Below are positions 24,347 through 52,061 of a stretch of DNA of 64,000 bases, one piece after another. Location of the stretch: positions 26,845 to 90,844 of the IMG/VR virus record IMGVR_UViG_3300006871_000008; one strand, given 5' to 3'. Made by a program: the position numbers and the translations under genes. Numbering within the stretch: the first letter of the stretch is position 1; each line of letters begins with the position of its first letter. The stretch is from a virus. The notes beneath the pieces are model-generated. The model did not search any database. It was not told where the DNA came from and was given only the letters and a program-made list of their open reading frames with translations.

Positions 24347-25515
24347 ACAACCTCCCCTTGAAACTCAAAGGTGATGCTGCGATTGTGCCGACCTTGTTGT
24401 GTGATCTGTGCATCCGGCGTTTTGATTACGCCACGCCATTGACGGTTCTCCCAATCCAACAGACCAATCTCCCTGCCCAATGAGGCCATCATAAAGTTCT
24501 TCATGTCTGAAACTTGCTGCCCCGTTAGATTGTTGACGGTCAGATGCAAGGTTTGAGACTTCGGCCACTTTGGATCGGCAAAGATGATTAGTGAACCGCC
24601 ACGCGATTCGCGTTTGATGCGATTGAAAGAAAGCACGTCGGAATTGTCCGGCTCAGGATTTCGCAACACCAGAACAATGTCCGACGTGGCATACGGATAA
24701 GTAAGTGTGAGAGTGGCATGTCCAAGTACCGGCGGTGTCGTCGAGGGTGCTGTGTAAGAGGGGTCGCCACCCGTACCCACGAAGGGTGTATAGTTCTTCG
24801 GGGTACATCGACTTTCAACAACGCCTATTGCCGATTGGGAAAAGGAAATGGCCGAGTTTACTGACCTTTTAAGGACGGCTGTATATGTTGCTTGACTATC
24901 AAAAGCAATTACGTGTGATACCTCATCGCCCTTCCCAACCGTGACTGCTTGCGTCAATGCCAAGGTGCTGATGGCGATATTCTTTCGCTCAGCCGTACTG
25001 GTCAAAGACATAGTGGTGGTGGCAGAGGCCGGACGTGGCCGGCCTGCAACCGATGACAACACCATTATCGAGGAAGCTGCTACTGTGAAGTCATGCGCTA
25101 CACCCACAACTTGTACAAAGTTTAGTGGAGTAACTACTTCCTCGCTCTTGATATTCGAGATAATGTCCTGCTGGAAGTCTAGCGCGCTGCTTACGCTGCG
25201 AGCATAGTTCACTGTCTCAGTTGCGGTGGACGTGAATGCCAGGATACTGTTAATTGGGATCGTCGTATAGACCGCTGTATCCGTGAAGGCGAGTGTGGAT
25301 GATGCCACACCAAAAGCATCGCGCTGGTATGTAGCGGACTGCGAGAAGCTGATAGCACTGCTGACAAGGACTGGCTCATCTACCGCCGTGGCATCGCTAG
25401 TAAACGCCAGTACCGACTCTACGGACTGCTCCAAAGGATTGTCCGTAAGATCAATGCCAAGGGTTTCATTACCCCAAAGACTATCGGAAGTACCTAGCCG
25501 TCCTGTTAGCGACAT
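24343..25515 (-). CDS. Tail protein with repeated S-x-L-x-F-x-x-x-A units, 390 aa
   Basis: Probable virion protein. Residues about 30-250 hold roughly nine repeats of the type SALAFTSTA or SAISFSQSA spaced about 20-25 residues apart, as in stacked beta repeats. The C-terminal 110 residues match the 137-aa neighbour in style (distal-tail-like). The start overlaps the upstream stop (TAATG). It may be an elongated tail-tip appendage. Confidence 0.55.
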   Translation of the reverse strand: MSLTGRLGTSDSLWGNETLGIDLTDNPLEQSVESVLAFTSDATAVDEPVLVSSAISFSQSATYQRDAFGVASSTLAFTDTAVYTTIPINSILAFTSTATETVNYARSVSSALDFQQDIISNIKSEEVVTPLNFVQVVGVAHDFTVAASSIMVLSSVAGRPRPASATTTMSLTSTAERKNIAISTLALTQAVTVGKGDEVSHVIAFDSQATYTAVLKRSVNSAISFSQSAIGVVESRCTPKNYTPFVGTGGDPSYTAPSTTPPVLGHATLTLTYPYATSDIVLVLRNPEPDNSDVLSFNRIKRESRGGSLIIFADPKWPKSQTLHLTVNNLTGQQVSDMKNFMMASLGREIGLLDWENRQWRGVIKTPDAQITQQGRHNRSITFEFQGEVV

Positions 25516-26444
25516 TATTCCTTACTCCAATGCAAGAGCCTTCCAATGCCCTCATGGGTATTGTTGGAGTTGGCAGAGACAAAGAATCCAACTTGATCGG
25601 GACCACCACTCATGTAGGTAGTCTTACCGAATGACTTAATGAGAATCCAATTCTTTCCGTCAATGCCTGTGTAGAATTTCAAGTTAGTGCCGTCATTCTC
25701 GATCTTCAACCACACCACGTCTAGGGTGAACCAGCGATTAGACGACTTCTCGGTGGTGAAGAATGACGTGCTGGTATTCCAGATTGAAACCTCAAGATTC
25801 ATGTATGAGGAATCATTGGCAGGGATGCAATTGATGGCGTTTAGTTTGCCATCTGAATTCTTCCGAAAGCAAAGGCCAAACCTGTTGGCACTTCCACTTT
25901 GGATACTCGGCATACAACAACGCCAAGCCGCGATGTACGCATAGGGAGTTGAGGGTGCTGAGCGATATAGGACGTGGGCATTGGTCCCACTTTCAACTGG
26001 ATACCGCATTAAGATCGTGCCATTTTGATCTGTGGCTGAAGCGCTACCCTGATGGTCCCAGGTGAAATCACTGACAGCAAGAGCAGCCGTAGCTCCATCA
26101 TTCATAATCTTGCCGAAGGGTCGCTCGGCAATCGAGGCCCCAAATATGGGGTGATAGTCCATACCCCGCCGCTTCAAGCTACCTGCGGTAAGGACAAGGC
26201 TGATTGCTAAGGCGTCGGCATGGGAGGCTGCCGTAGTTCCCTCATGCCCGCGCGTGACCGTAAGCGTATTGCTGGAACGGGCCGTACAAAGCATTATCTC
26301 GCTCTGGCAGACGAGACGGAAATTTCCTGTTGAGGGAAACACTGAGCCATCCGTGACAGTGATACTTGTAACACTGTTATTGATCGACCCATTTAGGGTC
26401 GTCGTTGCCAGAGATTTGATTTGTTCTTTTAGGGGTGCGGTCAC
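25515..26444 (-). CDS. Receptor-binding/tail-fibre paralogue 3 of 3
   Basis: About 309 residues. The N-terminal module (TTLNGSINNSVTSITVTDG, then RGHEGTTAASHAD) is a common tail-fibre attachment domain. The C-terminal two thirds look like a concanavalin/LamG-type sandwich (WLKIENDGTNLKFYTGIDG). The GTG at 26444 overlaps the previous stop (GTGA) and follows a GGAG site, which gives an N-terminus aligned with its paralogues. It likely binds host surface glycans, inferred from the fold. Confidence 0.7.
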   Translation of the reverse strand: MTAPLKEQIKSLATTTLNGSINNSVTSITVTDGSVFPSTGNFRLVCQSEIMLCTARSSNTLTVTRGHEGTTAASHADALAISLVLTAGSLKRRGMDYHPIFGASIAERPFGKIMNDGATAALAVSDFTWDHQGSASATDQNGTILMRYPVESGTNAHVLYRSAPSTPYAYIAAWRCCMPSIQSGSANRFGLCFRKNSDGKLNAINCIPANDSSYMNLEVSIWNTSTSFFTTEKSSNRWFTLDVVWLKIENDGTNLKFYTGIDGKNWILIKSFGKTTYMSGGPDQVGFFVSANSNNTHEGIGRLLHWSKE

Positions 26445-27379
26445 GATGCACGACTCCAATGAACCAGCCGGATATGGTTCGTTTCGCTGCCATTATCAGA
26501 ATTGTTGCAGCCCCAGAATACTCGATTTGGCGCACCAGCCATGTGCGCGGTTCGGCTGGCCGAAGCAATTTGAATCCACTCCACACCATCCATGCTAATA
26601 TAGAAAATCAGGTTGGTGTTGTTATCTTCCACCTTTAGCCAAACAACCGAGCCGATAAACGTGATAGTAGTCTTTGCCAGCAAGTCAGTCGTGACTGTGG
26701 TGGCATTCGTCCACTGGTAAACTGCAACCTGTTTAGCACGGCCACCAGAGCGACTGTCAGCTTGAACAGCCAGCGTTGTCAACTTGCCTGTGCTGCTTTC
26801 CCGGAAGCCGAGGCAGAAGAACGCATAGTCAGGGCTACCTTCAACCGGCATGAGTGGTTGAAAGGCGGCGATGTAACTATACGGGGCCGAGGGTGCTGTG
26901 CGTTCGAGGATACGCACGTTGTCGCCAGAACTTGTTGTAGGGATAAGTAGGATCGTCCCATCTTCATCGGTCTTAGTGGACGACCCTTGATTCTGCCAAG
27001 TGAAATCTGTAGCCGCTAGTACGGTAACACCATCATCATCGACAAGCAGATTGAGCGGCAGCAGACTCGACCAACCCCACAGTGGAATGTTGTCGGCGGC
27101 AAGACGGTCATACCCATCGGCTGTAATGACTTGAAAGATTTTCTTGCCATCTGCGTGCGAGGCTGCGGTTGTTCCATCTTGCCCGCGAACAACAGTCAGG
27201 TTGTTGCTGGACCGGGCTGTGACCAGCATAATCTCGCTCTCGACCACAACGCGGAAGTTGCCCGTCGAGGGGTACACAGACCCATCCGTGACAGTCACGG
27301 TTGTAACGCTATTGTTGATCGCACCATTCAAGGTCGTCTCAGTAGCGTTCTTCGTTAGTTCTTTTGCAGGAGCGGTCAC
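26441..27379 (-). CDS. Receptor-binding/tail-fibre paralogue 2 of 3
   Basis: About 312 residues with the same plan as its neighbours: an attachment module (LNGAINNSVTTVTVTDG, RGQDGTTAASHADG) and a C-terminal sandwich ending ETNHIRLVHWSRAS. The start is taken as GTG at 27379 in a GTGA overlap. The N-terminal module is much more conserved among the three copies than the sandwich, as expected when receptor specificity diversifies. Confidence 0.7.
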   Translation of the reverse strand: MTAPAKELTKNATETTLNGAINNSVTTVTVTDGSVYPSTGNFRVVVESEIMLVTARSSNNLTVVRGQDGTTAASHADGKKIFQVITADGYDRLAADNIPLWGWSSLLPLNLLVDDDGVTVLAATDFTWQNQGSSTKTDEDGTILLIPTTSSGDNVRILERTAPSAPYSYIAAFQPLMPVEGSPDYAFFCLGFRESSTGKLTTLAVQADSRSGGRAKQVAVYQWTNATTVTTDLLAKTTITFIGSVVWLKVEDNNTNLIFYISMDGVEWIQIASASRTAHMAGAPNRVFWGCNNSDNGSETNHIRLVHWSRAS

Positions 27380-28314
27380 GATGCACGACTCCAATGCACC
27401 AGCCGGGCCAGTTGCTCGTAGGTGCTATTGTTGTAATTGTTGATGCCCCAAATGATTCGATTAGGCCCACCAGCCATATGCCCTGTTCGGCTCTCCGTCT
27501 GGACCAATACCCACTCGATGCCATCGCCAACATAGAACTTTAAGTTGGTATTGTCATCCTCAATCTTGAACCAAAGCAGATGATCGCAGAGTCCGTGGAA
27601 TCGAACAGTCAAGCCTGTCCCGCTGAACGTGGTTGAATTGGTCCACTTGTAAGTTGACAGCACCATGCCGTCAACCCAGAAGCCACCATTGTTTTGATTG
27701 CTCAAACAGATTGCACTCACCTTACTGGTGCTGCTCTCACGGAAGCCAAAGAACACCAGTGGAATAGACCCGCTGCCAGGAATCAAGAGTGCGCGTAATG
27801 CTCCGATGTAGCTATATGGCGCTGATGGAGCGGTACGCTCTAAGATGCGAAGGTTCTCACCTGTCGCAGTCGGGGCACGCAGGAGAATGGTCCCGGCCTG
27901 ATCTGTCTTTGATGCACTTCCTTGGTTCTGCCAAGTAAAGTCACTAGCCGCAAGGATGGTGGAACCATCATCGGCGACCAGTTTGTTCAGAGCAGGTTGG
28001 CTCGAATATCCCCACAGCGGCACGTAGTCGGCATTGTACTGGTTAATGCTGGCATCGGTTAGGATCAGTGCAATCTTCGACAAGTCAGCGTGCGAGGCTC
28101 CCGACGTGCCCTCCTGACCGCGAACGACCGTGAGCGTGTTACTGGACCGTGCCGTGACCAGCATAATCTCGCTTTCGCACTTCACGCGAAAGTTGCCGAC
28201 CGAAGGAAACACGGAACCATCAGTCACCACGACGGACGTGGTGCTATTATTGATCGACCCATTGAGGGTCGTCTGAGTCGAGTTGGCGAATTGCTCTTTT
28301 AGTGGCGCAGACAT
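27376..28314 (-). CDS. Receptor-binding/tail-fibre paralogue 1 of 3
   Basis: 312 residues starting MSAPLKEQ from an ATG. It has the attachment module (LNGSINNSTTSVVVTDG) and a C-terminal sandwich (LLWFKIEDDNTNLKFYVGDG). It is the first of three tandem copies, downstream of a strong terminator hairpin, so expression may depend on read-through or an unseen promoter. Confidence 0.7.
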   Translation of the reverse strand: MSAPLKEQFANSTQTTLNGSINNSTTSVVVTDGSVFPSVGNFRVKCESEIMLVTARSSNTLTVVRGQEGTSGASHADLSKIALILTDASINQYNADYVPLWGYSSQPALNKLVADDGSTILAASDFTWQNQGSASKTDQAGTILLRAPTATGENLRILERTAPSAPYSYIGALRALLIPGSGSIPLVFFGFRESSTSKVSAICLSNQNNGGFWVDGMVLSTYKWTNSTTFSGTGLTVRFHGLCDHLLWFKIEDDNTNLKFYVGDGIEWVLVQTESRTGHMAGGPNRIIWGINNYNNSTYEQLARLVHWSRAS

Positions 28315-34240: not shown

Positions 34241-35284
34241 TTACACGCGAGACACGCCCGGCTCAACGGAATTACACTTTCCCGTCACGCTGATCGTGGC
34301 ATCACGCAAGTTGAATTCGAGGCTCTCGTACCGGAAGTCCGGGAACGTGTAATCCTCATTCAACTCTGACCCGCAGGGCGGATCGTACACAACTTCAATG
34401 TCAATGGCGAACGGCTCGCACGGGTCGCTAGACGAACTAGCAATCGTGGAGGCTTCACCTTGCTGCTTGAGGAAGTCGATAGGTGACGGAAGCCAAGCCC
34501 CGCCCGACCCATTCGTGTAGAACTCATACAGCAAATCCAGCTTCACTTCGACCGGCTGCTCATCGCCACGTCGAACCGTGTCTAGGTCGCCACGGTCACG
34601 GACGTAATCGAATTCGCGCTTCTCAGACCAAGTGAGATTGCCGTTACCAACCTTAATCTCGATGCGAGCAGGCAGGAAGGTAATGTCGGCATTGTCAGCC
34701 GGGATTCCATCAGCCGTGGCAAAGGCCGGGCTGAACGTGATGATGCCGGTCGTGCCGCCCTGATTGAGCGTGCTGACCGTCACCGTATCGCCGCCACCCG
34801 ACAAGTCCACGTCCGTAGCCGTCATTTGGGCGACGTTCGTGTTCAGGTAGGCTTGGGTAAACTTCACGATCCACTTGCCGGTCGCGGGCTTCGTCACAAT
34901 CACGTCGCCAGGGGCGATGTTGGACAGAGCCTCAAGAGCCGTCTGCACGTCGCTCGCGCTCGCGTTATAGGCGATATTCGCGGTCGTTTGTGCGCTGAAA
35001 GTGAGGGTGAAGTTACCAGACGTGGCATCCACGGTAACAAGTTGGTTTTCGTTCTTGTCCGTGGCAGTCACGGTATAGAACGCTTGGGTCGAGCCGACCA
35101 CCGAAAACCGTGCGCCAATTGGCACGACGGTTCCAGCATCCGGGAGGCTCGCCAAGTTGTCAATGTAAATCGACGTGTTACCATTGGCCGGTGCAGCCGG
35201 AGCGCCAGGTCCATTGACTTTGGCCGTGCCGGCAAAACCGTCCTTAAAGTAAATCGTCGTGTTACGAAGTTCAATTTGAGCCAT
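34241..35284 (-). CDS. Tail tube protein paralogue with inserted beta module
   Basis: 347 residues. The first 16 and last 150 residues are nearly identical in plan to the shorter neighbour (NGNLTWSEKREFDYVRDRGD, then YTFPDFRYESLEFNLRDATI). Residues about 75-190 hold an extra domain with FTLTFSAQTTANIAYNASAS, DVQTALEALSNI and GKWIVKFTQAYLNTNVAQM. That pattern is common in planctomycete surface proteins, from memory. It is likely a tube subunit decorated by an Ig-like module, or a separate minor tube protein. Confidence 0.7.
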   Translation of the reverse strand: MAQIELRNTTIYFKDGFAGTAKVNGPGAPAAPANGNTSIYIDNLASLPDAGTVVPIGARFSVVGSTQAFYTVTATDKNENQLVTVDATSGNFTLTFSAQTTANIAYNASASDVQTALEALSNIAPGDVIVTKPATGKWIVKFTQAYLNTNVAQMTATDVDLSGGGDTVTVSTLNQGGTTGIITFSPAFATADGIPADNADITFLPARIEIKVGNGNLTWSEKREFDYVRDRGDLDTVRRGDEQPVEVKLDLLYEFYTNGSGGAWLPSPIDFLKQQGEASTIASSSSDPCEPFAIDIEVVYDPPCGSELNEDYTFPDFRYESLEFNLRDATISVTGKCNSVEPGVSRV

Positions 35285-35309
35285 TGGCTTTTGTTCCTTT
35301 CAATCAGAA

Positions 35310-36047
35310 TTACGGGTCGCGGGACACGCTCGGCTCGACGGCATTACACTTGCCCGTCACGCTGATCGTGGCGTCCCGAAGATTGAACTCAAGGCTCTCG
35401 TAACGAAAATCCGGGAACGTGTAATTTTCGTTCGTTTCCGACCCGCACGGCGGATCGTAAATTACTTTCACGTCGATGGCAAACGGTTCGCAGGGGTCGC
35501 CAGACGAACTTGCCAGATTCGCAGCCTCATTGGCCCGTTTCAGGAAGTCAATGGGCGAGGGCAGCCAAGCACCGCCAGAGCCGTTCGTGTAGAACTCATA
35601 CAGCAAGTCGATTTTTACTTCGACTGGCTGCTCATCCCCACGTCGAACAGTATCAAGATCGCCACGATCCCGAACGTAGTCAAATTCCCGCTTCTCCGAC
35701 CACGTAAGATTCCCGTTACCAATCTTGATTTCGATTTGGGCCGGAAGGAACGTGATCGCAGCATCATTGGCAACAGAACTTGCCAAGGCCGGGGTGAAAG
35801 TCAAACTGGTAGTCGGGGGACCGCCAGAGTGAGCAGTTACCGTGTGTACGGGCGTGCCAGTCTCACCAGCGATGGTGAACCGAACACCCTCAAACACTTC
35901 ATTGCCGCTATCGGGCAGATTGGCAAGAGTGTCAATCGTGATGGTTGTGACACCACTCATGTACCCTCCGCCATTGTTTACGGCTGCCGTGCCCGTAAAA
36001 CCATCTTGCAGAAAGATGGTTGTATTACGAAGTTCAATTTGCGCCAT
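35310..36047 (-). CDS. Tail tube protein (short paralogue)
   Basis: 245 residues, MAQIELRNTTIFLQDGF start. It shares the core and C-terminus with the 347-aa paralogue, including YVRDRGDLDTVRRGDEQPVE and GGAWLPSPIDFLK. The gene order connector, tube, chaperone, tape measure identifies it as a tube protein. It probably arose with its neighbour by duplication, followed by a module insertion in one copy. Confidence 0.75.
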   Translation of the reverse strand: MAQIELRNTTIFLQDGFTGTAAVNNGGGYMSGVTTITIDTLANLPDSGNEVFEGVRFTIAGETGTPVHTVTAHSGGPPTTSLTFTPALASSVANDAAITFLPAQIEIKIGNGNLTWSEKREFDYVRDRGDLDTVRRGDEQPVEVKIDLLYEFYTNGSGGAWLPSPIDFLKRANEAANLASSSGDPCEPFAIDVKVIYDPPCGSETNENYTFPDFRYESLEFNLRDATISVTGKCNAVEPSVSRDP

Positions 36048-40479: not shown

Positions 40480-42624
40480 TTAATTGACATAGGTAATTAC
40501 GATAGCGATTCCATCTGCACCAGCGCCACCAGTACCGGCGGTTGTGGGGTTGTTTGCACAACTCCCGCCGCCACCACCTGCACCAATCGCACCGCCGCTA
40601 CCGCCAGTCCGGGGCGTCGTAGTAATGAAACCACCGCCGCCACCCGCACCGCCCCAATAGTAGCCACTTGAGGCTCCACCATTTCCAGGTACACCGGCAT
40701 TTCCAACATTGCCGCCGACGCCGCCCGTAAATGTGGCGCTGGCAGAATTGCCACCAGCAGAACCTACCACGTTTGTATTAGTAGAACTGAATCCGCCACC
40801 GCCTCCACCGCCAGCCGCAGCACTTGTGTTGCTGCTAAGTGTCGTGGAACCGCCAGCGGTTGAGACATTGTTGCTATTGCCATTGCCGCCTGCACCGCCC
40901 GCTAACGCACCGGCACCGCCACCGCTACCAACTCCACCAGCACCACCTGCCGCTCCCGTAGTCGTGTTATTAGTTCCGCCACCGCCTCCACCGCCACCGC
41001 CAGCACTAAGAGTAATGCCAGCGCCGCCCGTACCGACAAAGGAACTTGCTGTTCCAGCTACTCCACCGCTACCATTGGTGTCATTGGTTGAGGCACCGGC
41101 ACCGCCAGTACCGCCAGTACCGCAAGTGATTGTGTCACCATCATTGAACAGTGCAGCGTTAAACAGTCCAGTAGTAAAGGCACCACCGCCTCCACCGCCT
41201 CCACCGCCGCGAGTTGAGCTAACAGCACCGCGACGACCGCCGCCTCCACCGCCACCGGCACCAATCAAAATAACTTCGACAGCCGTGGCCCCGGAGGGCT
41301 TTGAGTACGCTGCTGTGCCGCCAGTAGATACTACTTGAATGGCTACGCCATTCTGTCCGGGCGCACCTGTGTTACCTGTGTTACCCTTATCTCCCGCTCG
41401 CGCGAAAAACACCTTGACCGTATCGCCATTCGAGATAGTGCCAGTGCTAACTAAGTTGGTCACAGAAATCTTGTCGTAACTGCCCGCATCGGTGTTTGCA
41501 GCAACAATCGTAAAGACAATAAGATTCTGTGGCGCACCATCTTTCACAATTAGGATTTGACCACGATCAGTGAAGTTGGTGCTGTCGTCCCAACTCGCAA
41601 TCCAGTTAGCTAAACCGTTGCCATCCCCGTCAGTTTCATTGATGTAGATTTTTGTGACTGAGCCAATTGTGGCGTTATCAAATCGCAATTTGCCGGAACC
41701 GGGATCAGCGTCAGTTGTGCCGTTATCGAAGGTGTACTTGATTCCAGCATCGCGTCCCGCAGCACCCGTTGAGCCAGTCGAACCCGTTGAGCCAATATCA
41801 CCTGTGCGAATAAACTCAAGTTTGACGGGATCGTTGTTTGAGAACGTGCCATTAGAAACTACGTTGGCAACCGTCAAAGTGTCCCACGTCCCATTATCCG
41901 TCAAGGTTCCAGTTACGTTAAACAGTGCGAACTTGGCAGGGTTCGTATTATGCCGCATTAGGATTTGGCCCTTCACTGTGGAAGTGCTATCATCCCAAGC
42001 ATTGACATAGGCTCCTATTCCGTTTGCGTCCCCATCTGTTTCGGAAATATACAGAGCCGTGGCAGAAGCAAGAGTTGTGTTATTGAAACGCAAAGTTCCA
42101 GAGCCAGGATCGGCAGCGGTAGTTGTGGTGCTATAAGTGTATAGTAAACCAGCATTCCTACCATCGGCTCCATTAGACCCGTTGCTTCCATTGGAACCAT
42201 CATTGCCTGTATAAGAGGCCCAGATGCGAACGTAATCGCCGTTCGAGATTGATCCAGCCAGGATTTCGCCAACATTGAGTGTGTCCCAAGTACCGTTGTC
42301 AGTGTTGGTTCCGGTCACGTTGTAGATGAACAACGAGCCAGTTGATTCCACCATTATGTAAAGCCTAGCATGAACGGCATTGGTTGAATCATCCAAGGCA
42401 GCGAGCAGGCTTGCTACATTGTTTCCATCGGCATCTGTCTCGCTGATTGCGATTTGCGTGGCCGGTGGAATATTGAATCGAAACTTGCCGGAACCTGGGT
42501 CGGCAATTGTCGTGTTGGAATCATATTGAAACCGAATACCACCCGCTGCACCGACTACTGAATCGGCGGCGGCAACTTGCTGGACCTGACCAGCGCTGAT
42601 GATAAGGGGTTTCTTGATAGCCAT
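40480..42624 (-). CDS. Glycine-rich head/tail fibre protein, 714 aa
   Basis: Starts KKPLIISAGQVQQV, an anchor peptide shared with neighbouring fibre genes. Three repeats of about 120 residues follow (each with ADPGSG, LRFN, ISETDGD, WDDST and NGTWDTL), separated by short collagen-like or Gly-Ser/Thr linkers. The C-terminal 260 residues are a polyglycine domain (ILIGAGGGGGG, many GGAGG runs) like those of adhesins with glycine-rich sandwiches. It probably binds a surface receptor or decorates the capsid. Confidence 0.7.
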   Translation of the reverse strand: MAIKKPLIISAGQVQQVAAADSVVGAAGGIRFQYDSNTTIADPGSGKFRFNIPPATQIAISETDADGNNVASLLAALDDSTNAVHARLYIMVESTGSLFIYNVTGTNTDNGTWDTLNVGEILAGSISNGDYVRIWASYTGNDGSNGSNGSNGADGRNAGLLYTYSTTTTAADPGSGTLRFNNTTLASATALYISETDGDANGIGAYVNAWDDSTSTVKGQILMRHNTNPAKFALFNVTGTLTDNGTWDTLTVANVVSNGTFSNNDPVKLEFIRTGDIGSTGSTGSTGAAGRDAGIKYTFDNGTTDADPGSGKLRFDNATIGSVTKIYINETDGDGNGLANWIASWDDSTNFTDRGQILIVKDGAPQNLIVFTIVAANTDAGSYDKISVTNLVSTGTISNGDTVKVFFARAGDKGNTGNTGAPGQNGVAIQVVSTGGTAAYSKPSGATAVEVILIGAGGGGGGGRRGAVSSTRGGGGGGGGGAFTTGLFNAALFNDGDTITCGTGGTGGAGASTNDTNGSGGVAGTASSFVGTGGAGITLSAGGGGGGGGGTNNTTTGAAGGAGGVGSGGGAGALAGGAGGNGNSNNVSTAGGSTTLSSNTSAAAGGGGGGGFSSTNTNVVGSAGGNSASATFTGGVGGNVGNAGVPGNGGASSGYYWGGAGGGGGFITTTPRTGGSGGAIGAGGGGGSCANNPTTAGTGGAGADGIAIVITYVN

Positions 42625-43106
42625 TACAGCTTAATCGGAGCAGTTGTGTCAATGTCCATTTCGGTGGCGCTGATCGCAAGGCCACACTTCACAACAAATT
42701 GTCCTGTGGTCGTTGGGGCTGTTTGAGTCAGCTTGCCTGCCGTACCAGCATCCAAGTAATAGACCGCACCCGGCGTCAAACCACCTGTTTCGCCAGTGAC
42801 AGCATCCCACTGTCCAGTCGTAGCAGCCAGCACGCCGTCTGTTTGGATGTTTCCAGAGGCCGCTGCCGCAATGGATGTATCGGCGACTAGGCCGAGAATC
42901 TGCACCGTACCTTGAGCATTAGCACGCCCCTTGTCCACGTTGCCATTTGACTTGACATAAACTGGCGCACCAATGACAATCGAACCAGCATTGTCATTTG
43001 TTTTGGCAATCACGTCAACTTCGGTGACGGACGCATTGAGCGTATCGCCAGCCTGTAGTTGCTCGATTTGGCCGTTCGTAATTACTAGCGGTTTCTTAGC
43101 TGACAT
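42624..43106 (-). CDS. Head-fibre-like protein, anchor type 1, 160 aa
   Basis: The N-terminus KKPLVITNGQIEQLQAGDTL recalls head-fibre proteins of phi29-like phages. A beta domain and the shared C-terminal unit GAVYYLDAGTAGKLT, then GQFVVKCGLAI, follow. Its closest relative in the window is 50738-51220. Coupled to the next gene by TAATG. Confidence 0.7.
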   Translation of the reverse strand: MSAKKPLVITNGQIEQLQAGDTLNASVTEVDVIAKTNDNAGSIVIGAPVYVKSNGNVDKGRANAQGTVQILGLVADTSIAAAASGNIQTDGVLAATTGQWDAVTGETGGLTPGAVYYLDAGTAGKLTQTAPTTTGQFVVKCGLAISATEMDIDTTAPIKL

Positions 43107-43110
43107 GGTT

Positions 43111-43650
43111 TTACAGTCGTATGACTGGTCCTATTTCAATGTCGAATTTCTTGGTATTTTGTGCCCGCCCGATTTTGACAACATAGTAGCCATCGGCTGT
43201 CGGTGCGGTAGTGGTCATCTTGCCCGGCGTGCTATCCAGAAAATAGATTGCTCCGGGAACCAAATCAGTGCTGCCAGTAATGCCTGACCAATCGGCAAGT
43301 TCTAGCGTGTAGTCAGTGTAGTAGTCCCCACCGACACCGACCAACGTATCGTTAATCATCAGCCCGGCAACTTGTGCAGTAGCAATCGAGTTGTTGGCGG
43401 CTTTCTGCAATCGACCAGTATTGTCGATGTAGATAATCTCACCTTCACTCAAATTCTCCGCAGCCTCGGCATTGTATGGGCTGGTTGTCCCGCCAATCAA
43501 ACCTTGTGCATATCGTTGTGTGGCAATGACTTCTGCAACGATTTGGTCGTAGGACGGATAAGCAGGGCCAGAGTCAATTTGTCGTGAGTCTCGATCAGCA
43601 GCAGTCCCGTCCCAGACTTGTGCTGGAAACTGTGCTTTGCGCTCAGACAT
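43111..43650 (-). CDS. Head-fibre-like protein, anchor type 2, 179 aa
   Basis: Starts [20 protein letters not shown], an anchor also found at 43650-44498 and 51220-51732. The C-terminal unit (GAIYFLDSTPGKMTTTAPTA, YYVVKIGRA) is shared with anchor type 1 proteins, so the anchors are exchangeable. The start is set by the TAATG overlap with the upstream stop. Confidence 0.65.
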   Translation of the reverse strand: MSERKAQFPAQVWDGTAADRDSRQIDSGPAYPSYDQIVAEVIATQRYAQGLIGGTTSPYNAEAAENLSEGEIIYIDNTGRLQKAANNSIATAQVAGLMINDTLVGVGGDYYTDYTLELADWSGITGSTDLVPGAIYFLDSTPGKMTTTAPTADGYYVVKIGRAQNTKKFDIEIGPVIRL

Positions 43651-44498
43651 TAGTACCCTTTCTTGAAATCCAGAATATGCCACTTACCATTCTGGCCTTC
43701 ATAGATTACATCGAGGTAGCTGATTGACAGTGGACGATCCGAGGGTGTGACACTTTCATTCCCGTAATGGAAGCCGCTGCCCAGACTCAGGAATCGGCCA
43801 CCAGTTGCATCTTGCTGAATGCGAATCAAAATTCGCTTGCCATCTACGCCGTTGATCGGGGCCTTGAGGATTGAGTTTTCGAGCAGTAGGATATGGAACA
43901 GGTTGCCTTGCGAAGCGTCCACTTCGAGAACCTTGCAGCTATCGACTTTGATAAGTTCGACCGCATCGCCTCTTGGACCTTGTGGGCCGGGCGGTCCTTC
44001 TGGACCTTGCGGGCCTTGCACACCTTGCGGGCCGATTGGACCTTCAACGCCTCTTGGACCGAGGGGGCCGGGCGGTCCACCTGGATCGCCGGTATCTCCC
44101 TTCGGGCCTCTCGGACCTTGCGGGCCGGGTGGACCATGCGGGCCTTGGAATCCTTGTGCGCCTTGCAAGCCGACTCGACCCTCTGCTCCGGGTTCACCTT
44201 GCGGGCCAATTGGGCCGGGCGGGCCGGGCAAGCCTTGATCGCCTCGCTCGCCTTTGGGGCCAGCGGGACCGATTGGACCTTGCGGGCCGGGCGGACCACC
44301 GGGCGTGCCGGGGTCGCCTTTTGGACCTTGCGGGCCGGGCAAGCCGAGCGGAATGCGACCTTCGAGAATGGCCGACTCAATAGCCTGAATCTCGGTGGTG
44401 AGTACGCGCATGTCCCGATAGTCGGGGTTAATGGTGTCAGACGAATGCTGACGGTTGGGCGTTAGCCCGTCCCAGACTTGTTCGGGGAACTTACTCAT
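43650..44498 (-). CDS. Collagen-like fibre protein
   Basis: 282 residues. The anchor [13 protein letters not shown] (type 2) and a short helix are followed by about 120 residues of uninterrupted Gly-X-Y collagen repeats (51-175; GPQGP, GPPGP). A C-terminal beta domain ([20 protein letters not shown]) could be the trimerisation or binding head. It should form a stiff triple-helical fibre attached to the capsid or neck. ATGA overlap with the portal stop. Confidence 0.75.
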
Positions 44499-46267
44499 TG
44501 TGCCGCTCCTGTGTTCTGTCCGGGGCCGCGAACAGGCTTACCTTGTTTCTCTGCTACACCTTGATTCGGTGTGACTGCCGCATCCGGGACGCCTCGCGCC
44601 CCTGCGGTCGCTGGATTAACGCCACCGGGCGGTGTCTGCGACTTTGCAATCAGTGCCAGCCGATCTGCTTGATCCTTGCGAGCCTGTTCAACTTCGTTGG
44701 GATCATAGCCGCGAGCCTCCGAGGCTGTGGCTTGACTAACAAGACCATTGGTTAGGTCTTGTGTGATAATCAGCGAGTCACACGATTGATACTTGGCCTT
44801 ATCAACTTCGGCCTGCATCGCGGTCAATTCATCGGGAGAGAGTTTGCCACGAAGCAAAATGTCAATAATGTCTTTGTTGATTTGCTTCTGGAAAGACTTG
44901 CTTGGGACAGCAAACTTGAGTTCATTGTGATCTTTGGCTTCCTTCCGGCGTTCTTCATCCGTTTTGATACTGTACTGTTCGGGGTATTGAATGGTGGCAG
45001 CTTCACCACCTTCATACATCGACCAGAAGCGGGCAATTCGCCGTTCGCCATTTTCGAGTACCAATCCGATGTAGGACAGGCCAGATTCCAGGCCCGTTTG
45101 GTCGAGTTGCTTGGACTCAGCCGACGCCATCTTGGGATTGATATTTGTTACGGCAAGATTCACAAGCAGCCGAATATCCTCTTTCAACTTCTCTTGCAGC
45201 TTCATCGACGCATCCAGCGGTTCGCTGGAAGGGTGAATGAAGCCAGGACGTTCGGTGTTAATATCGTACTGACGGCCTTGCACCGGGCCAACCATTACTT
45301 CCTCATCCCGTGCTTGCTGGCTGCCGGTTACGGCTGCCGCATCAGGATTCAGATTCTCCATCAGATGCAGGCTGCCACCGCGCAAGTCCCGCTGCTCTGT
45401 ATAGAATGGGAAGTTGGCTTTAAGGGCGTAGGCTACGTCGCTGGAACCAAGATTCAACAGCGCGATTTGGTGATTCGCAACATCCTCGATAATCGACTGT
45501 CGAATATCCATGCAGACGAAGGGGATAGTTGTGATCGCCAATTCGATTGGTCCACCACCAACCAAACCATCTTGATCGGTCGGGGTAAAACTCTTGTCGT
45601 AGAATTGAACATTCACTTTGCCAGTGACCGGATCAATCCACAAGTGTCGGTAACGCTCGACTTCACCAAAGGCTAACTGCGTCAACGGATCATAGTCCAC
45701 GCAACGGTCACGCAGTAGGATGGAGCGATAGTGGTCAGGCTCTTGAATCGAGACGCTCGACCATGACAAAATATCTTCAACGCGATACAGGTACAAGTAC
45801 GGGCGAACCGACGTTGCATCCAGAATCGAGGGGTTTTCCGGCAGCGGAGGATTGTCAACATAAATGCCGACACGCCCCATCACCAGTAGCTCCGGTAGCA
45901 CTTCCTGTCCAAGAAATGCGTTCATCGTCGAGCCACGCATGTCCACGCCGTTGTCAAGTCCCTGTACCGCAATCTGGTATGACTGAGAACCACCCTTCCG
46001 CGTAATGTCGGTCATTCGCTGGAAGATGCTGTTCTTAATGTCATTGACAGCCGCTTTGGCAAAGGCAGGGACCGGGGTGATAGACCTTCGGTCACGGAAA
46101 TCTTGCAGACGTTCGCGCGAGCTAAATTTCTTGAGGTATCGAGCAACGAATTCGTCGCCGCCCTCATAGGCTCGCCGCCACTTGTCCCAATCCTTGAGGC
46201 GTGCCAGATACTCTGGATGCCGGGTTTTGGGTACTTTGATTTGGTCTGTCTTTGGCTGCGCCATCAT
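44495..46267 (-). CDS. Portal protein (SPP1 gp6 / DUF4055-like)
   Basis: 590 residues. Regions typical of portals are [40 protein letters not shown], and the long clip/wing part with [20 protein letters not shown]. It forms the dodecameric DNA gate at the packaging vertex. The C-terminal 60 residues are Gln/Pro/Gly-rich. It follows the terminase by 5 nt, the standard order. Confidence 0.9.
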
Positions 46268-46272
46268 CCACC

Positions 46273-47988
46273 TTAGAGGAAAGCTGTAATACTGCGAGCG
46301 GAGGCAACCGCAGCCGCGAGAGGCAAAGCAATCTCGGCATAGGTCTGGGCGTGGGCGTAGTGGTCCGGCCCTGTCTCGACGTAACGGGCAACTACGTTCC
46401 CATCATCGTCCGTTTCATAGCGTCTCGCAGGCGCTTTAATTTGCTCTTTGTACTCGATTGGGGTGTCTTGGGGTAGATCAATTGACCCGTTGTAATACCG
46501 GCCAAGCGTTGCATCCAGCCAACTCGTCCGGTCAACCGTAGCCATTGGCGCTCCGGTTTCTTGCTCGGAGAGGGCAATTTCCTTACCCACAACGCCACGA
46601 CGGTAACGGCAAAGTGTCACGTATCCTGGGAAGCGTCGAGCAAAGCGGCGGGCATCGTTAATGTTGGGGTCGGCATCCAGCACGCAATGCCGCACCTGCC
46701 ATTCCCGCATCAGCCGGTCGAATTGAGGGAAGTCACCCTCAGCAACCTTACCCATCCATAGAACCTTACACTTCGCATTGGCATTCAAATCGTAGCCGAG
46801 CCGGTCATAGGTCCACTCATTTACCACGACATAATGCCATTTACCTTGGTCGATGCCCATTGTTATGAGTCGCTTGCCGCCAACAGCCGGGCGTGCATCA
46901 CTCAATCTATGCGAACTTTTCGCAATAGCCGCCTCAATATGCTCGTCTCGAACCTGGGCATCTGAGGCTAAGTAGGCTTCACCTAGTTTTGAGTTCTTGA
47001 ATTCCTGCATTGCGACTTCTGATCGGAGGCCAAGCAAGTATCGTTCTGCGATTTCTGCCGGGCTGATCGTCGCGCTGTAAAGCTGATTGATATGAAAGCC
47101 ACGATGGTCTGGACTATTGCCACTGGTAGCTTCCCATTGGCCGGGTTGTAAGTAGGCAGCTTTGCCCTCATCAATCCATCCATCCTCGCCAGGAATACGG
47201 CCAGTCTCATGCGTGCTAAGAGTCGTCTTGCACTCATAGCAAAGTAGTCGAGAACGAAACCGATCAGGGTCATTAGGTGTTTCACCGCAAACCTCAAAAC
47301 TCTCCGGCCATTTGAGTTCGATTTTCTTGCCACAGTGCGGGCACGGAAAGAAAAAGTGTTCCTGCGTGCTTCGCTGGTACTGCAAGTCGATTCCAAAGCC
47401 AGGAATCGTTGGGGTCGAGAGCATGAATACATGCTTGTGAATCTGGCCCGATAATCGTTCAAGGGCCAACCCAACTGACTTCTCCCGCATTTCGTCAAAT
47501 TCGTCCAGAATCAACTCTGAGACGGGGATCGACTTCAAGCCTGATTCGCTGTTAGCGCCACGGATGTAAAGAGCCGCCCCGGCAGCCTGCTTCAAGTCGA
47601 TTTTGTTGGTGTCAGAGAACATCCCCGCAAGGTACGGGCTAAGTTCTAATGCACCACCAAAGCGAACCGCTGAGAAGTCGGCGGCATCGGGCACTTTCGT
47701 TGGAAGAACGTACAGCACCGAACGGCGATGTACGTCAAGGGTGAACAATGCTCGATTGATTGCTACTTCTGTGAAGCCTGCCTGTGCCGATTTCTTTGCC
47801 GTCATGTACGGGCAATCGGCGTCGTGAATCTCTCTGCACCACGGATGATACTTGAACGTGTACGGGCCGGGAACAGGCGCACCCATGATTCGCCGTGCTT
47901 GTGCCCATTTGCTGCAACTGGTCAGCGTCTTATTTCGTAAACCAGTAGCGATTGCAAGCCTTATCTCATCAAACAGCTTGGTCGCCAT
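46273..47988 (-). CDS. Terminase large subunit (GpA-type)
   Basis: 571 residues. The ATPase has the Walker A-like KSAQAGFTE (66-74) and Walker B ILDEFDEM (160-167), followed by an RxHVFMLSTPT coupling motif. A zinc-binding loop (CPHCGKKIEL, CYEC) and a C-terminal nuclease with Asp in MGIDQGKWHY and LDADPN fit the GpA family. It packages DNA into the prohead and cuts concatemers. GpA enzymes usually make cos ends, but no cos site is identified here. The 160 nt upstream (47989-48148) hold only short unconvincing frames. Confidence 0.92.
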   Translation of the reverse strand: MATKLFDEIRLAIATGLRNKTLTSCSKWAQARRIMGAPVPGPYTFKYHPWCREIHDADCPYMTAKKSAQAGFTEVAINRALFTLDVHRRSVLYVLPTKVPDAADFSAVRFGGALELSPYLAGMFSDTNKIDLKQAAGAALYIRGANSESGLKSIPVSELILDEFDEMREKSVGLALERLSGQIHKHVFMLSTPTIPGFGIDLQYQRSTQEHFFFPCPHCGKKIELKWPESFEVCGETPNDPDRFRSRLLCYECKTTLSTHETGRIPGEDGWIDEGKAAYLQPGQWEATSGNSPDHRGFHINQLYSATISPAEIAERYLLGLRSEVAMQEFKNSKLGEAYLASDAQVRDEHIEAAIAKSSHRLSDARPAVGGKRLITMGIDQGKWHYVVVNEWTYDRLGYDLNANAKCKVLWMGKVAEGDFPQFDRLMREWQVRHCVLDADPNINDARRFARRFPGYVTLCRYRRGVVGKEIALSEQETGAPMATVDRTSWLDATLGRYYNGSIDLPQDTPIEYKEQIKAPARRYETDDDGNVVARYVETGPDHYAHAQTYAEIALPLAAAVASARSITAFL

Positions 47989-48148
47989 CGGTTGTTCCTG
48001 TCAATTGGGCTGGTGGGCCGCTTCTCTTGCAAATTTGGCGTGAGTGTGTTGCGGTTGTTCCCTACCAGCCCTTGATTTCCTAATCCCCACCCGGTCCTTC
48101 CAACAACGACGCACTCAAACCCTTTGTGCGTTAGAAAGGTCCAACCAT

Positions 48149-48565
48149 TTATCGGCGGGTACGCGATTTCTTGTCGCTCGCGGGTATTAGAGACTCCGCC
48201 GCCTCTACGACCTCCGGTTGGGCGTCATCCTGACCATCAGATTCCAACCCATCTACCGGGTGGGGATCAGTGATTTTCGTTTCCGGGGCCAAATCGGGCA
48301 GCCCCAAATTCTTCGCCGTAATATCGTAGGCGTGCCAGATGCCATCAGCACGGGCAATCGCACGATATTCTGGTGCTTCCTTATTGCCTCGCTCGTCGGC
48401 GGGCGAATGCTCAAACCGCGCATCTTTCAGTCCGGCGTATCCTTCAATGTCAATGTCATCGCCGAAATACTCGCGCTCGATCAAATGTTCTTCGATGTAT
48501 CGTTCGCCTGAATAGACGGTCAGGCTGTGGCATTTGTTGCTGTGGGGTGGTAATGTCAGAATCAT
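48149..48565 (-). CDS. Hypothetical protein, 138 aa
   Basis: Not recognised. Acidic, with an N-terminal beta/HIS-rich part (HSLTVYSGERYIEEHLI) and a low-complexity acidic tail ending DKKSRTRR. ATGA overlap with the next gene upstream. It is immediately before the large terminase, separated by a 160-nt gap. Confidence 0.55.
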   Translation of the reverse strand: MILTLPPHSNKCHSLTVYSGERYIEEHLIEREYFGDDIDIEGYAGLKDARFEHSPADERGNKEAPEYRAIARADGIWHAYDITAKNLGLPDLAPETKITDPHPVDGLESDGQDDAQPEVVEAAESLIPASDKKSRTRR

Positions 48566-48801
48566 TGTGGCCTCTGTTCGAGTTTGCGAATTAGGTCGCC
48601 AAGGTCAGTATGGATCAGTCGGAGTTGTGTGAGCGGATCGCCCGGCAACTCGGCATCAGCATAGTCCTTTGCAACCCGATAAATTCCTTCCATGCCCTTT
48701 GTCAATTGATTCCAAAGCCTTTGGCCTTCGGCTTGAGAACTCAGGATTCGTGTCGTTTCGCGTGGCCCCGTCGAGGGCACAAAACCGCCATGCGCTCCCA
48801 T
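48562..48801 (-). CDS. Hypothetical helical protein, 79 aa
   Basis: Not recognised. The start at 48801 follows GGAGATTAAA. Mostly helical (QRLWNQLTKGMEGIYRVAKD, then LTQLRLIHTDLGDLIRKLEQ), like small structural or accessory phage proteins. Coupled to both neighbours by overlap. Confidence 0.6.
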   Translation of the reverse strand: MGAHGGFVPSTGPRETTRILSSQAEGQRLWNQLTKGMEGIYRVAKDYADAELPGDPLTQLRLIHTDLGDLIRKLEQRPQ

Positions 48802-48802
48802 T

Positions 48803-49183
48803 TTAATCTCCGAAGAATAGCGGTGAGACTTTCGACGACTCGGACGGTTCATCGGCTGGCGGCTTGTCATATTGAAGGAACAGCAGGGCAATCTTGATAA
48901 TGATTGGCAGCCAAGTCACAATCAGGTCAATCCAGTGCGACCAGTCAATGTCGCCCGTCGTGGCGGATTCGGGGTCGTAGGCAAGCAATTCTTCTCGGCA
49001 ACGATCTTCAATCCGGGACATGATTGGATTCATGTAGTACCGGCCACCCCGCTGCGACCCCTGCACAATGTCATAGAGCAGGTAGGCATCGGAACCGTTT
49101 ATATGCCCGTTACGCCATCCGCGCCAAATGGCACGGCGTAATGCTCGCCGGAAAATAAGAGCCGGGCGTCGAATAATCGCCAT
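48803..49183 (-). CDS. Membrane-anchored protein, 126 aa
   Basis: Not recognised. Arg-rich N-terminus, then a single membrane segment at about 90-107 (LIVTWLPIIIKIALLFL) and a polar C-terminus. It could be a holin-like or membrane-docking protein. It lies between a thioredoxin-like gene and the terminase block. Confidence 0.55.
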   Translation of the reverse strand: MAIIRRPALIFRRALRRAIWRGWRNGHINGSDAYLLYDIVQGSQRGGRYYMNPIMSRIEDRCREELLAYDPESATTGDIDWSHWIDLIVTWLPIIIKIALLFLQYDKPPADEPSESSKVSPLFFGD

Positions 49184-49186
49184 CGC

Positions 49187-49774
49187 TTACTTTCCTTCAA
49201 GTTTGGATTCGAGGAACTCGCGGCTGTGACCAGCACCATTTCCGCGATACACAACCTTACCGTCTCGCACAACTGCGACAACCGGCACAGAACTAATGCC
49301 CCACGCATTTGCACTTGCCCTATCTTGGTCAATGTCCACTATGAAAACTTTGTGCTTACCGGCGTCTTTGATAGACTCGATGACCGGCTTTTGCGAGCGG
49401 CAAGGCCCGCACCACGTCGCTGTGAAATAGATCAGGTAGTCTTTGGGTTGAGCAGCGTTCTCACTCTTAGCCACTCCCGCTCCGTTTGTCGCCTTTGGCG
49501 CATCGTTAGAAACGGGCGTAGCCGGTTCTTTCTCAGCAACCTTCGCAGATTCCGTTCCTGGCGTTCCACTCTCCGCCGACGCAGTTTGTTCGGCCTCTCC
49601 GAGTCCAAGACCGTAATCAATCGCTGTAGCTGTTCGATCAGCCTCGACCACTTGAACGTGCCCCTCGACAGGTCCAGTAGAGTTGAACGAATGAGCCGCT
49701 TTAGGACAAGCCACGCACGCAGCATAAGCCACCGCCATCAGCATACAAGCGCTGTGTAAAAGCCAAAATTTCAT
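49187..49774 (-). CDS. Exported thioredoxin-like protein
   Basis: 195 residues from ATG 49774 (GGGGG ribosome site). The N-terminal 29 residues look like a signal peptide (LLHSACMLMAVAYAACVA). An 80-residue Ala/Glu/Pro-rich linker follows, then a thioredoxin fold with WCGPC (about 112-116), VFIVDIDQD and the cis-Pro loop ISSVPVVAV. It probably reduces or isomerises disulfides outside the cytoplasm. Its presence in a virion operon is unusual. A much longer upstream reading is a shadow of the papain-like gene. Confidence 0.8.
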   Translation of the reverse strand: MKFWLLHSACMLMAVAYAACVACPKAAHSFNSTGPVEGHVQVVEADRTATAIDYGLGLGEAEQTASAESGTPGTESAKVAEKEPATPVSNDAPKATNGAGVAKSENAAQPKDYLIYFTATWCGPCRSQKPVIESIKDAGKHKVFIVDIDQDRASANAWGISSVPVVAVVRDGKVVYRGNGAGHSREFLESKLEGK

Positions 49775-49796
49775 GGAATGACCCCCTAGCTGCCGA

Positions 49797-50738
49797 TTAG
49801 AATAATCGGTAATCAAGGTCTTGGGATTCAAAACCTGTGTAGCCTGACATTGCATAGCTATCATCCTGTCGGAGCATTGCATCGGCCACTTCGGCATCAA
49901 CCCAGAACGAACCGGAGGGTTGGTTGTGTCGGGTCGGGCCAGAAATCCAATCCTCGCCCCAACTATTCCAGCACAGCAAGCCGGGCCGACTATACTCGTC
50001 GTCCACGGAAACGAACAACATACAGTGACTCCAAGAGCCACTTGGACGGGCAAAGCCGTCCTTGTCCCGCACGCTGCGGAACCCATAATTTGAGCAGACG
50101 GGCACAGGATAGCCGTTCGCAATTGCATCACGCGCTTCCTCATATGACCGCACAGGAGAGACTGTCTTGACCGGATGCTCTTTGCCGATTGGCTCAAGTT
50201 CATCGGGCGCTCCCGCGCGAGGCGCACCCCACCGACGAGAAATCTCACCACTGTAGTTGGTCAAATCATACTTGCCGTCCAGATACTTCATCCGATGGAG
50301 TGTGCCGTATTTCACGACACCTTCGGCAGCCCATGCACCGTTGGAGCCATCGCCCCAACCGCAACCACCGCGCCCAATTTCAACGCGCGAAATGGCATAA
50401 ATGTACTCAGTCGAAGCCTTAGCGGCGAACTTTTCTCGCTTGCCAGCCTTGATTTCGGAGGCTTGCAGCACGTCCACGCCCATGCCCCAACCCTGGCTAA
50501 CGCATGTACCGTAGTTACCCTGATTGTGCGAGCGGCATTGAGGATCAACGACTTCACGGTAAAATTCGTGCAGAAGGACGATTTTGCCCTTCCCGCTATC
50601 CTGAATCGCCGGCGCTGCCGTCTTGAATTGCCCCATCGGGCCAAGACTGGCATGATATGCGGCAATATCTTCCCGCTTCGGCTGCCAACCAGCCAGAGAG
50701 CCAGCGGCGTGCAGATCAAGAATGTTGTAGTCGGCCAT
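49797..50738 (-). CDS. Papain-like cysteine protease
   Basis: 313 residues. The C1-type triad appears in order: Cys79 in HNQGNYGTCVSQG, His238 in GSWSHCMLFV and Asn258 in CWNSWGEDW. These are the classical papain blocks. No signal peptide is seen. It lies among head-fibre genes, so it may process virion proteins or be packaged, both inferences. TAATG overlap with the fibre gene downstream. Confidence 0.85.
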   Translation of the reverse strand: MADYNILDLHAAGSLAGWQPKREDIAAYHASLGPMGQFKTAAPAIQDSGKGKIVLLHEFYREVVDPQCRSHNQGNYGTCVSQGWGMGVDVLQASEIKAGKREKFAAKASTEYIYAISRVEIGRGGCGWGDGSNGAWAAEGVVKYGTLHRMKYLDGKYDLTNYSGEISRRWGAPRAGAPDELEPIGKEHPVKTVSPVRSYEEARDAIANGYPVPVCSNYGFRSVRDKDGFARPSGSWSHCMLFVSVDDEYSRPGLLCWNSWGEDWISGPTRHNQPSGSFWVDAEVADAMLRQDDSYAMSGYTGFESQDLDYRLF

Positions 50739-51220
50739 TATAGCTCCACAGGCTGTTCGATGGTGATTTCAAGTTCTGTCGGACTCAGGGCCTTGCCGAC
50801 GCGAGCAACAAGCTGGCCGGTGGCGCTCGGTGCAGTCGAAGTCAGGTGTCCAGCGGTCGTCGGGCTGAGGAAGTAGATCGCGCCCGTCGTAAGACCGCCA
50901 ACTTGACCTGTGATGGCATCCCATTGGCCGGTTGTGGCCGTTAGAACACCGTCTGTTTGAATCATGCCGGGCTGGCCCGCTGCCACAGAGGCATCCTTGA
51001 CCAGACCCAAGACTTCCGAAGTGGCGTAGGCATCAGCCTTCGCCTTGTCAACGGTGTCAGCAACGGTCGTATAGACCGGCGTACCGATGACGATTGCGCC
51101 CGCATTGCCGTTGGTTTGCGAGATTACATCAACCTCCGACACGACTGCATCCAGGGTATCACTGGATTGAAGTTGCCGGATACGGCCATTGACCATTACT
51201 AGGGGTTTTCGTGCAGCCAT
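50738..51220 (-). CDS. Head-fibre-like protein, anchor type 1 (second copy)
   Basis: 160 residues, same length and plan as 42624-43106. The N-terminus RKPLVMVNGRIRQLQSSDTL is followed by TDGVLTATTGQWDAITGQVG and a C-terminal unit GAIYFLSPTTAGHLT. The two copies lie 8 kb apart on either side of portal and terminase. Probably an alternative capsid decoration. Confidence 0.7.
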   Translation of the reverse strand: MAARKPLVMVNGRIRQLQSSDTLDAVVSEVDVISQTNGNAGAIVIGTPVYTTVADTVDKAKADAYATSEVLGLVKDASVAAGQPGMIQTDGVLTATTGQWDAITGQVGGLTTGAIYFLSPTTAGHLTSTAPSATGQLVARVGKALSPTELEITIEQPVEL

Positions 51221-51732
51221 TAGAGTCCTATCGGTGACTCGATGCGAATATCGAGTGTTTCAGGCGTTAGTGCTTTACCCAACTGCACGACAAATTCGCC
51301 GGGCAGACTTGGTGGTTCCGTGGTTATGAGTCCTGCGATTGTTGGGTGTAGGAAATAAGTCGCACCGAGCGATAGTTTTTCAGTCAGTGCGACAGCAGAC
51401 CAATCTTCTCTTGTGACTTGACCTGATGACCCGCAAACGGCTTCTGAGCCTGTTGGAGCATCGACAAACACAAATCCACAGGCGTCTGCATGGGTTTCAT
51501 CGTTAGCTTGGGCAGGCCAAATTCGGTTGTTGAACACGTAAAATGGCTGGCCCGCGAGCATGTTTTGGCCGGTCATTAGGGTGAATGCCCCTGCCGACTC
51601 TGCCACGGCTCTCTGTGTGGCCTGCACCTGCGACGTGATCTTCTGCCAGTCGGCCCCATCCGGGGCTGCGTAGGTGTGCGGATCGTTGCGAGTCGCGGAT
51701 TGGCCGTCCCAAATCAGTTGTTCGAGCGGCAT
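51220..51732 (-). CDS. Head-fibre-like protein, anchor type 2 (second copy)
   Basis: 170 residues. The N-terminus LEQLIWDGQSATRNDPH matches the QVWDG anchor, and the C-terminal unit is GATYFLHPTIAGLIT, then GEFVVQLGKAL. Its order relative to the type 1 gene matches the other cassette (type 2 upstream, type 1 downstream), so the pair was duplicated together. Confidence 0.65.
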   Translation of the reverse strand: MPLEQLIWDGQSATRNDPHTYAAPDGADWQKITSQVQATQRAVAESAGAFTLMTGQNMLAGQPFYVFNNRIWPAQANDETHADACGFVFVDAPTGSEAVCGSSGQVTREDWSAVALTEKLSLGATYFLHPTIAGLITTEPPSLPGEFVVQLGKALTPETLDIRIESPIGL

Positions 51733-52061
51733 AGTTCAACCCACAGGCCATTGTCGTACAGCAATGTTATCGTGTCCCGGATGCTGTCTAGGTTACAATT
51801 ACCTGCTAAGGCAAGGTTTCCTGTTACATCTTTTAAGGTAATAGTCCTGGCATCATCAAATGCCATCAGAACTAACACGTCGCTTTGCTGGCCTCCATTG
51901 ATCGTTATTAAGTTCGTTGTTCCGGTGGTCGGTGAAGTGACTTTGTGGAACGATTTTGTAACTGTGATTGCCCCACCGATAACTGTCAGCGTTGTCGGGA
52001 CATTTAGTGAAACCTTATCAAGTTGCTTGATTCGGCCACTTATCATCCCCAAGGGGCGCAT
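51714..52061 (-). CDS. Small head-fibre-like protein, 115 aa
   Basis: The N-terminus RPLGMISGRIKQLDKVSL is a divergent type 1 anchor. The remaining 95 residues are a beta-rich domain (TNLITINGGQQSDVLVLMAF) without the shared C-terminal unit. Overlaps the next gene by 19 nt. Confidence 0.55.
   Translation of the reverse strand: MRPLGMISGRIKQLDKVSLNVPTTLTVIGGAITVTKSFHKVTSPTTGTTNLITINGGQQSDVLVLMAFDDARTITLKDVTGNLALAGNCNLDSIRDTITLLYDNGLWVELCRSNN

Follow-up and report, generated by a model that had tools for sequence, protein, structure and literature searches.

Two putative bead-chain fibre cassettes related to the A-1(L) neck fibre in a siphovirus-like phage genome

Introduction

The neck fibre of Anabaena cyanophage A-1(L), whose assembly is known from cryo-electron microscopy and reconstitution, is built from a base protein, gp82, which sits on the neck, from about 14 gp81 trimers joined head to tail, and from a tip protein, gp80 (PMC10966104). 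In its authors' model, fitted in a 6.07 Å map of the recombinant fibre, the N-terminal beta-hairpins of gp81 sit on gp82C (PMC10966104); the gp82 sequence is available in PDB entry 8keg. Here we compare this fibre with seven genes at positions 40,480 to 52,061 of a 64,000-nucleotide stretch of viral DNA (IMG/VR record IMGVR_UViG_3300006871_000008, positions 26,845 to 90,844). We refer to the whole stretch, which is most of the 90,844-base record, as the window.

A sequence-only reading had proposed that the seven proteins carry one of two exchangeable anchor peptides, serving two docking sites on the capsid. We denote the type 1 peptide by T1, the type 2 peptide by T2, the common C-terminal unit of several of these proteins by CU, and the N-terminal part of a base protein by X. 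As we describe below, the genes probably encode two bead-chain fibre cassettes of the A-1(L) neck-fibre type, in which T2 would dock on the virion and T1 would dock on CU. That is, T1 and T2 would act one after the other, and not as alternatives.

Results

We ran profiles of T1, T2 and CU made from non-window sequences only (leave-window-out profiles) against all 333 window open reading frames (ORFs) of at least 60 amino acids, among which all seven ORFs were found just where they had been placed. The T1 profile detects 42624-43106 (E 1.7e-17), 50738-51220 (E 1.1e-16) and 40480-42624 (E 3e-10). The fourth gene for which T1 had been claimed, 51714-52061, gives a weak match (E 0.27); it is 43% identical over 121 amino acids to L005_3300-3674, itself a member of the T1 set. 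All three T2 genes are recovered (43650-44498, E 6e-18; 43111-43683, E 9e-18; 51220-51732, E 1e-13), and CU is found behind both peptides, in two T1 genes (42624, E 2e-50; 50738, E 4e-50) and in two T2 genes (43111, E 8e-37; 51220, E 1e-29). None of the remaining ORFs has E <1 for any of the three profiles.

Since the peptides are short, and T1 of the 51714 gene is weak, one might suspect chance or low-complexity resemblance. The leave-window-out E-values of the peptides (1e-10 to 1e-18 among 333 ORFs) and the recurrence of the T1, T2 and CU motifs in about 100 other loci refute this explanation for six of the seven genes, and we give it hardly any weight. By sequence comparison, then, the recurrence of the three elements is confirmed well above chance. 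Some searches gave little: single T2-protein queries against viral contigs found no relatives, the T2 consensus found weak, chance-like matches only among known phages, and the collagen gene described below, used as query, returned nonspecific collagen matches. Stappia phage SI01 was checked as a candidate T2 carrier and rejected, as T1, T2 and CU are all absent there. A PDB sequence search with base, bead and A-1(L) gp81 yielded nothing significant, and Pfam holds no model that matches T1 or CU at threshold.

The genes, all on the minus strand, form cassette A (about 44.5-40.5 kb) and cassette B (about 52.1-50.7 kb). Both lie near the portal, scaffold and coat genes, and the T2-T1 pair is indeed present on either side of portal and terminase. 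Within cassette A, the base gene (T2-CU, 43111..43650) encodes 179 amino acids from the start at 43650, which agrees with relatives, the first in-frame start being a GTG at 43683. It comprises T2 (nucleotides 43495-43650), a helix and CU (43114-43476). The bead gene (T1-CU, 42624..43106, 160 amino acids) has T1 at 43023-43106 and CU at 42627-43007. The tip gene (40480..42624, 714 amino acids) has T1 at 42544-42624, three fibre repeats and a glycine-rich, adhesin-like C-terminus (phrog_754, E 2e-9). Ahead of these lies a T2-collagen fibre gene (43650..44498, 282 amino acids), syntenic in the relative L006, with T2 at 44355-44498, collagen repeats (PF01391, E 5e-18) and a C-terminal domain other than CU; we read it as a second fibre with the same virion docking peptide as the base. 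Cassette B comprises a small tip-like gene with weak T1 (51714..52061, 115 amino acids), a base gene (51220..51732, 170 amino acids; T2 at 51595-51720, CU at 51223-51582) and a bead gene (50738..51220, 160 amino acids; T1 at 51137-51220, CU at 50741-51124).

The CU profile matches both gp82C and gp81 of A-1(L). Over CU, the gp81 family aligns with the window bead family in hhalign with probability 97 and P 6e-11. An AlphaFold2 (AF2) prediction of the window bead (mean predicted local distance difference test score, pLDDT, 94) consists of a hairpin at residues 7-16 (strands 7-10 and 13-16), a flexible linker, and CU at residues 32-160. In the corresponding prediction of a T2-CU base, a disordered T2 region (pLDDT about 40) comes first, then a helix at 34-52, and finally CU, which is well folded. 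In addition, on a Myxacorys contig (L130) a T1-CU bead is followed by a gene whose hairpin (NFLTIVNGLIQRV) is of the A-1(L) type, which suggests that beads of one kind serve both T1 and A-1(L)-type hairpins.

The order of T1 and CU was assessed in about 90 related viral loci, mostly picked with T1-CU queries and including related phages in the counts. CU ends at most 6 residues from the C-terminus in 161 of 178 proteins, and T1 starts at most 12 residues from the N-terminus in 143 of 153. A CU-ending gene finishes at most 120 bp upstream of the T1 gene in 117 of 134 cases; among T1 genes without a CU of their own, the same is true of 51/55. The usual layout is X-CU, then at least one T1-CU protein of about 160 amino acids, then T1 on another body. 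In the very long fibres encoded by large ORFs of L187, L188 and L208, CU is internal (residues 337-442), and the N-terminus is T1-like (MADRIPLRIVN...GDTLG).

Because most of these loci had been picked with T1-CU queries, we also retrieved named phages with a 33-residue T1 peptide alone, which makes the check free of that selection. In all eight that were inspected, a CU-ending protein lies directly upstream (E 1e-16 to 1e-22). Six belong to Schitoviridae (R7L, DFL12phi1, DS-1410Ws-06, RD-1410W1-01, phiCB2047-B and V13). The other two are the Sphingomonas siphophages MMDA13 and Birtae (L107, L110), whose large central tail protein terminates in CU, the T1 gene coming next. These eight phages represent two lineages, not eight independent events. 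In bacterial genome assemblies, X-CU, T1-CU and a hairpin-bearing tip gene occur in that order at 6/6 loci. Since T1 genes adjoin CU-ending genes, and given the A-1(L) fibre, we favour serial docking, with T2 on the virion and T1 on CU; judged from sequence, T1 and T2 would not be alternatives.

We now turn to what changes with virion type. T2 is seen only in loci that carry virion genes of the window's clade. Podovirus-like tail-tube genes are accompanied by another peptide, NPxSxxEVRRA, in place of T2, and VTRQ-repeat proteins accompany tape-measure and tail-tip genes. The relatives G002-G006 have the window's portal family (48-51% identity), yet their beads are encoded in the tail-tip module, at a distance of 16-20 kb, and with a different X; T2 was not found in these five. 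The window bead shares 58-72% identity with beads from podovirus-like, siphovirus head-module and siphovirus tail-tip settings, the G005 cassette being more diverged. In other words, it is X that varies from one virion type to another; T1 and CU remain constant. Because T1 is constant as the virion context changes, docking of T1 on coat or portal appears unlikely from these comparisons, and CU, its travelling partner across those contexts, is the natural candidate for what it docks on.

These observations bear directly on capsid decoration, according to which T1 and T2 dock at two kinds of capsid site and CU is a cement-like domain. The nearest Foldseek neighbours of the bead are the capsid cement proteins of Pam3 (8hdt_G), HFTV1, XM1, TW1 and Sf11 (E about 1e-3 to 4e-2), with a weak likeness to the phi29 head-fibre base (E 0.07), and the cassettes are close to portal, scaffold and coat genes. 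The Pfam family PF09956 (Phage_cement_2) also matches CU weakly (E 0.003), its 18.5 bits falling below the gathering cutoff of 24. However, the tail modules of podovirus-like phages and the tail-tip modules of siphoviruses also contain T1 beads, 58-66% identical to those of the window, and T1 genes stand directly after CU genes. We therefore consider capsid decoration unlikely, and an exchangeable anchoring by T1 and T2 at two kinds of capsid site is not supported: T1 is the same across virion types where X changes, and it adjoins CU genes. The label of head-fibre-like genes is nonetheless a fair one, given the cement- or head-fibre-like fold of CU and relatives that are neck fibres (PMC10966104) or virion proteins confirmed by mass spectrometry (PMC4193335).

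Given these fold neighbours, CU may be an old decoration fold that was reused as a bead. Fold matches of the bead in BFVD include many tail-fibre-like proteins as well as the 168-residue Q5ZGE5; from its length and profile match, we infer that Q5ZGE5 is the bead of Flavobacterium phage 11b.

The proteins that carry T1 without CU have diverse bodies: tail spike, beta-propeller, depolymerase, S74, Mtd-like and collar. By sequence, these tips are of diverse receptor-binding types. The window tip agrees with the corresponding L006 protein in T1 and the first ~270 residues but not in the C-terminus, and the beads of the two are 76% identical. Such a pattern is expected if tips are exchanged while the chain stays constant. 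Relatives retrieved with the window tip body are long Gln-Gly-repeat fibres without T1, so that the tip body is modular; none of them carries this short tip on a different anchor. In this respect the sequence-only reading, which saw virion proteins of modular build, with exchangeable bodies behind short docking peptides at the N-terminus, is supported.

It is conceivable, too, that T1 tail or neck fibres each bind some common virion protein independently, with CU as their trimer-forming or receptor-binding end and with adjacency reflecting shared function. No virion protein is evidently common to the podovirus-like, siphovirus head-module, siphovirus tail-tip and Schitoviridae settings, and the beads of A-1(L) chain hairpin to CU (PMC10966104). 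Moreover, the hairpin turn is in some cases one residue longer, and bead and tip agree in this variant in 52/52 same-genome pairs (7 long, 45 not). Independent docking is favoured, by contrast, by beads with no X-CU nearby and by a null Mantel test (r 0.03, P 0.39) in which divergence of tip T1 was compared with that of bead CU and which gives no sign that particular T1 sequences are matched to particular CU sequences. On balance, independent docking seems to us improbable, slightly more so than capsid decoration.

Several of these points, with some others, weigh against docking of T1 on CU. They include the null Mantel test itself; the beads in L016, L056, L063, L071, L074 and L069 without a CU-ending neighbour in the available DNA; and the matched long turns, which may stem from common descent of one clade. 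The related phages among the counted loci weigh on the same side. The small tip gene of cassette B stands ahead of the base gene. T1 has no detectable sequence homology with the gp81 hairpin. Finally, the structure predictions are of monomers only, and the predicted cement-like fold of CU is compatible with capsid decoration.

Discussion

We suggest the following mechanism for the two cassettes. The T2-CU protein would be the base: its N-terminal T2 and short helix dock on the virion, and its C-terminal CU bead is left exposed. Because the cassettes adjoin the portal gene, and by analogy with A-1(L), the neck or portal vertex is the most likely site for T2, the capsid being possible. The T1-CU protein would be the repeating bead, whose T1 beta-hairpin clips on the CU of whichever protein precedes it, base or bead, such that beads polymerise head to tail as trimers into a flexible chain. 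A T1 protein without CU (40480; probably also 51714) would then clip on the last bead and end the chain as its tip or adhesin. The T1-CU contact, the trimeric state, the number of beads, the T2 site and the adhesion function are all inferences.

More broadly, we lean towards the view that T1 and CU form a portable standard for coupling fibres, a hairpin plug and a bead socket, used by podovirus-like phages, siphoviruses and roseophages and, in its own version, by the A-1(L)-type myophage. It would be combined with each lineage's own virion adaptors (T2, T3 and others) and with interchangeable tips, and could move between the head or neck and the tail tip of related phages. If so, the A-1(L) bead-chain fibre, so far one structurally described oddity, becomes a widespread and recognisable system; many phage proteins now called hypothetical gain annotation rules; and a natural plug-and-socket is at hand for swapping receptor-binding tips and for moving fibres between virion sites.

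The window encodes a GpA-type terminase, a phrog_145 portal, a P22-like coat, a phrog_206 scaffold, a phrog_477 adaptor and a tape-measure protein, and because of this gene set the phage reads as a siphovirus. Other features of its structural region are of separate interest. At 34241-36047, two paralogous tail-protein-like genes stand in tandem, with 79% identity over their last ~178 residues. The first has an additional domain of ~100 residues that matches major-tail-protein and sheath profiles; given this extra domain, the tail tube may contain a plain and a decorated subunit. In the tail-tip region, at 25515-28314, there are three tandem paralogues of about 312-317 amino acids (47-56% identical), near the position where G002-G006 have their bead cassette. 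Cassette B is followed, at 49187-50738, by a 313-residue gene and a thioredoxin-like gene. The former, without Pfam or PHROG match, may encode a papain-like protease, and its homologues are close to terminase or bead genes in several relatives. In L074 (5871-8169), a gene with an HNH/endonuclease-VII-like end stands beside a portal gene split into two ORFs.

Among known systems, the head fibre gp8.5 of phi29 resembles the cassettes through the weak fold similarity of its N base, but it is one protein without a series of base, bead and tip, and has no Pfam match here. Capsid cement proteins (PF09956 Phage_cement_2, Pam3 cement, TW1 stabilising protein) have a fold distantly similar to CU. CU is below the Pfam threshold, however, and the window proteins differ in their N-terminal docking hairpin, their serial operon and the occurrence of their relatives in tail modules as well. 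The second structural module of the N4-like roseophages RPP1, DSS3phi2 and phiCB2047-B (PMC4193335) is closer, since a T1-anchored tip comes after two CU proteins there; mass spectrometry of an N4-like roseophage virion detected a homologue of one such T1 tip, SUFG_43 (PMC4193335). These phages are podoviruses, their bead has another N-terminal hairpin, and an extra protein of ~110 amino acids stands ahead.

The fibre of A-1(L) provides the closest comparison. Its gene order of base, bead and tip is that of cassette A (43111, 42624, 40480) and of most relatives, and in part that of cassette B, which has base and bead with the small tip gene upstream. As in A-1(L), one type of C-terminal globular domain, homologous to gp82C and gp81, is common to base and bead, the bead starts with a beta-hairpin (predicted in the window bead), and the tip is a separate gene. 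In contrast, the window base would dock by the short T2 and a helix, where A-1(L) uses the ~125-residue gp82N on the neck protein gp5; the window tip is unrelated, and T1 is not detectably related to the gp81 hairpin. A-1(L) is also a myophage, whereas the window phage has a tape-measure gene, reads as a siphovirus, and carries two cassettes, with a cassette inside the structural gene block. Because it has no counterpart of the base docking domain gp82N (no search for a gp5 homologue was made), we do not assign the window system full membership with A-1(L). Rather, by this analogy, the window cassette would work like the A-1(L) fibre and share its bead, without being the same fibre.

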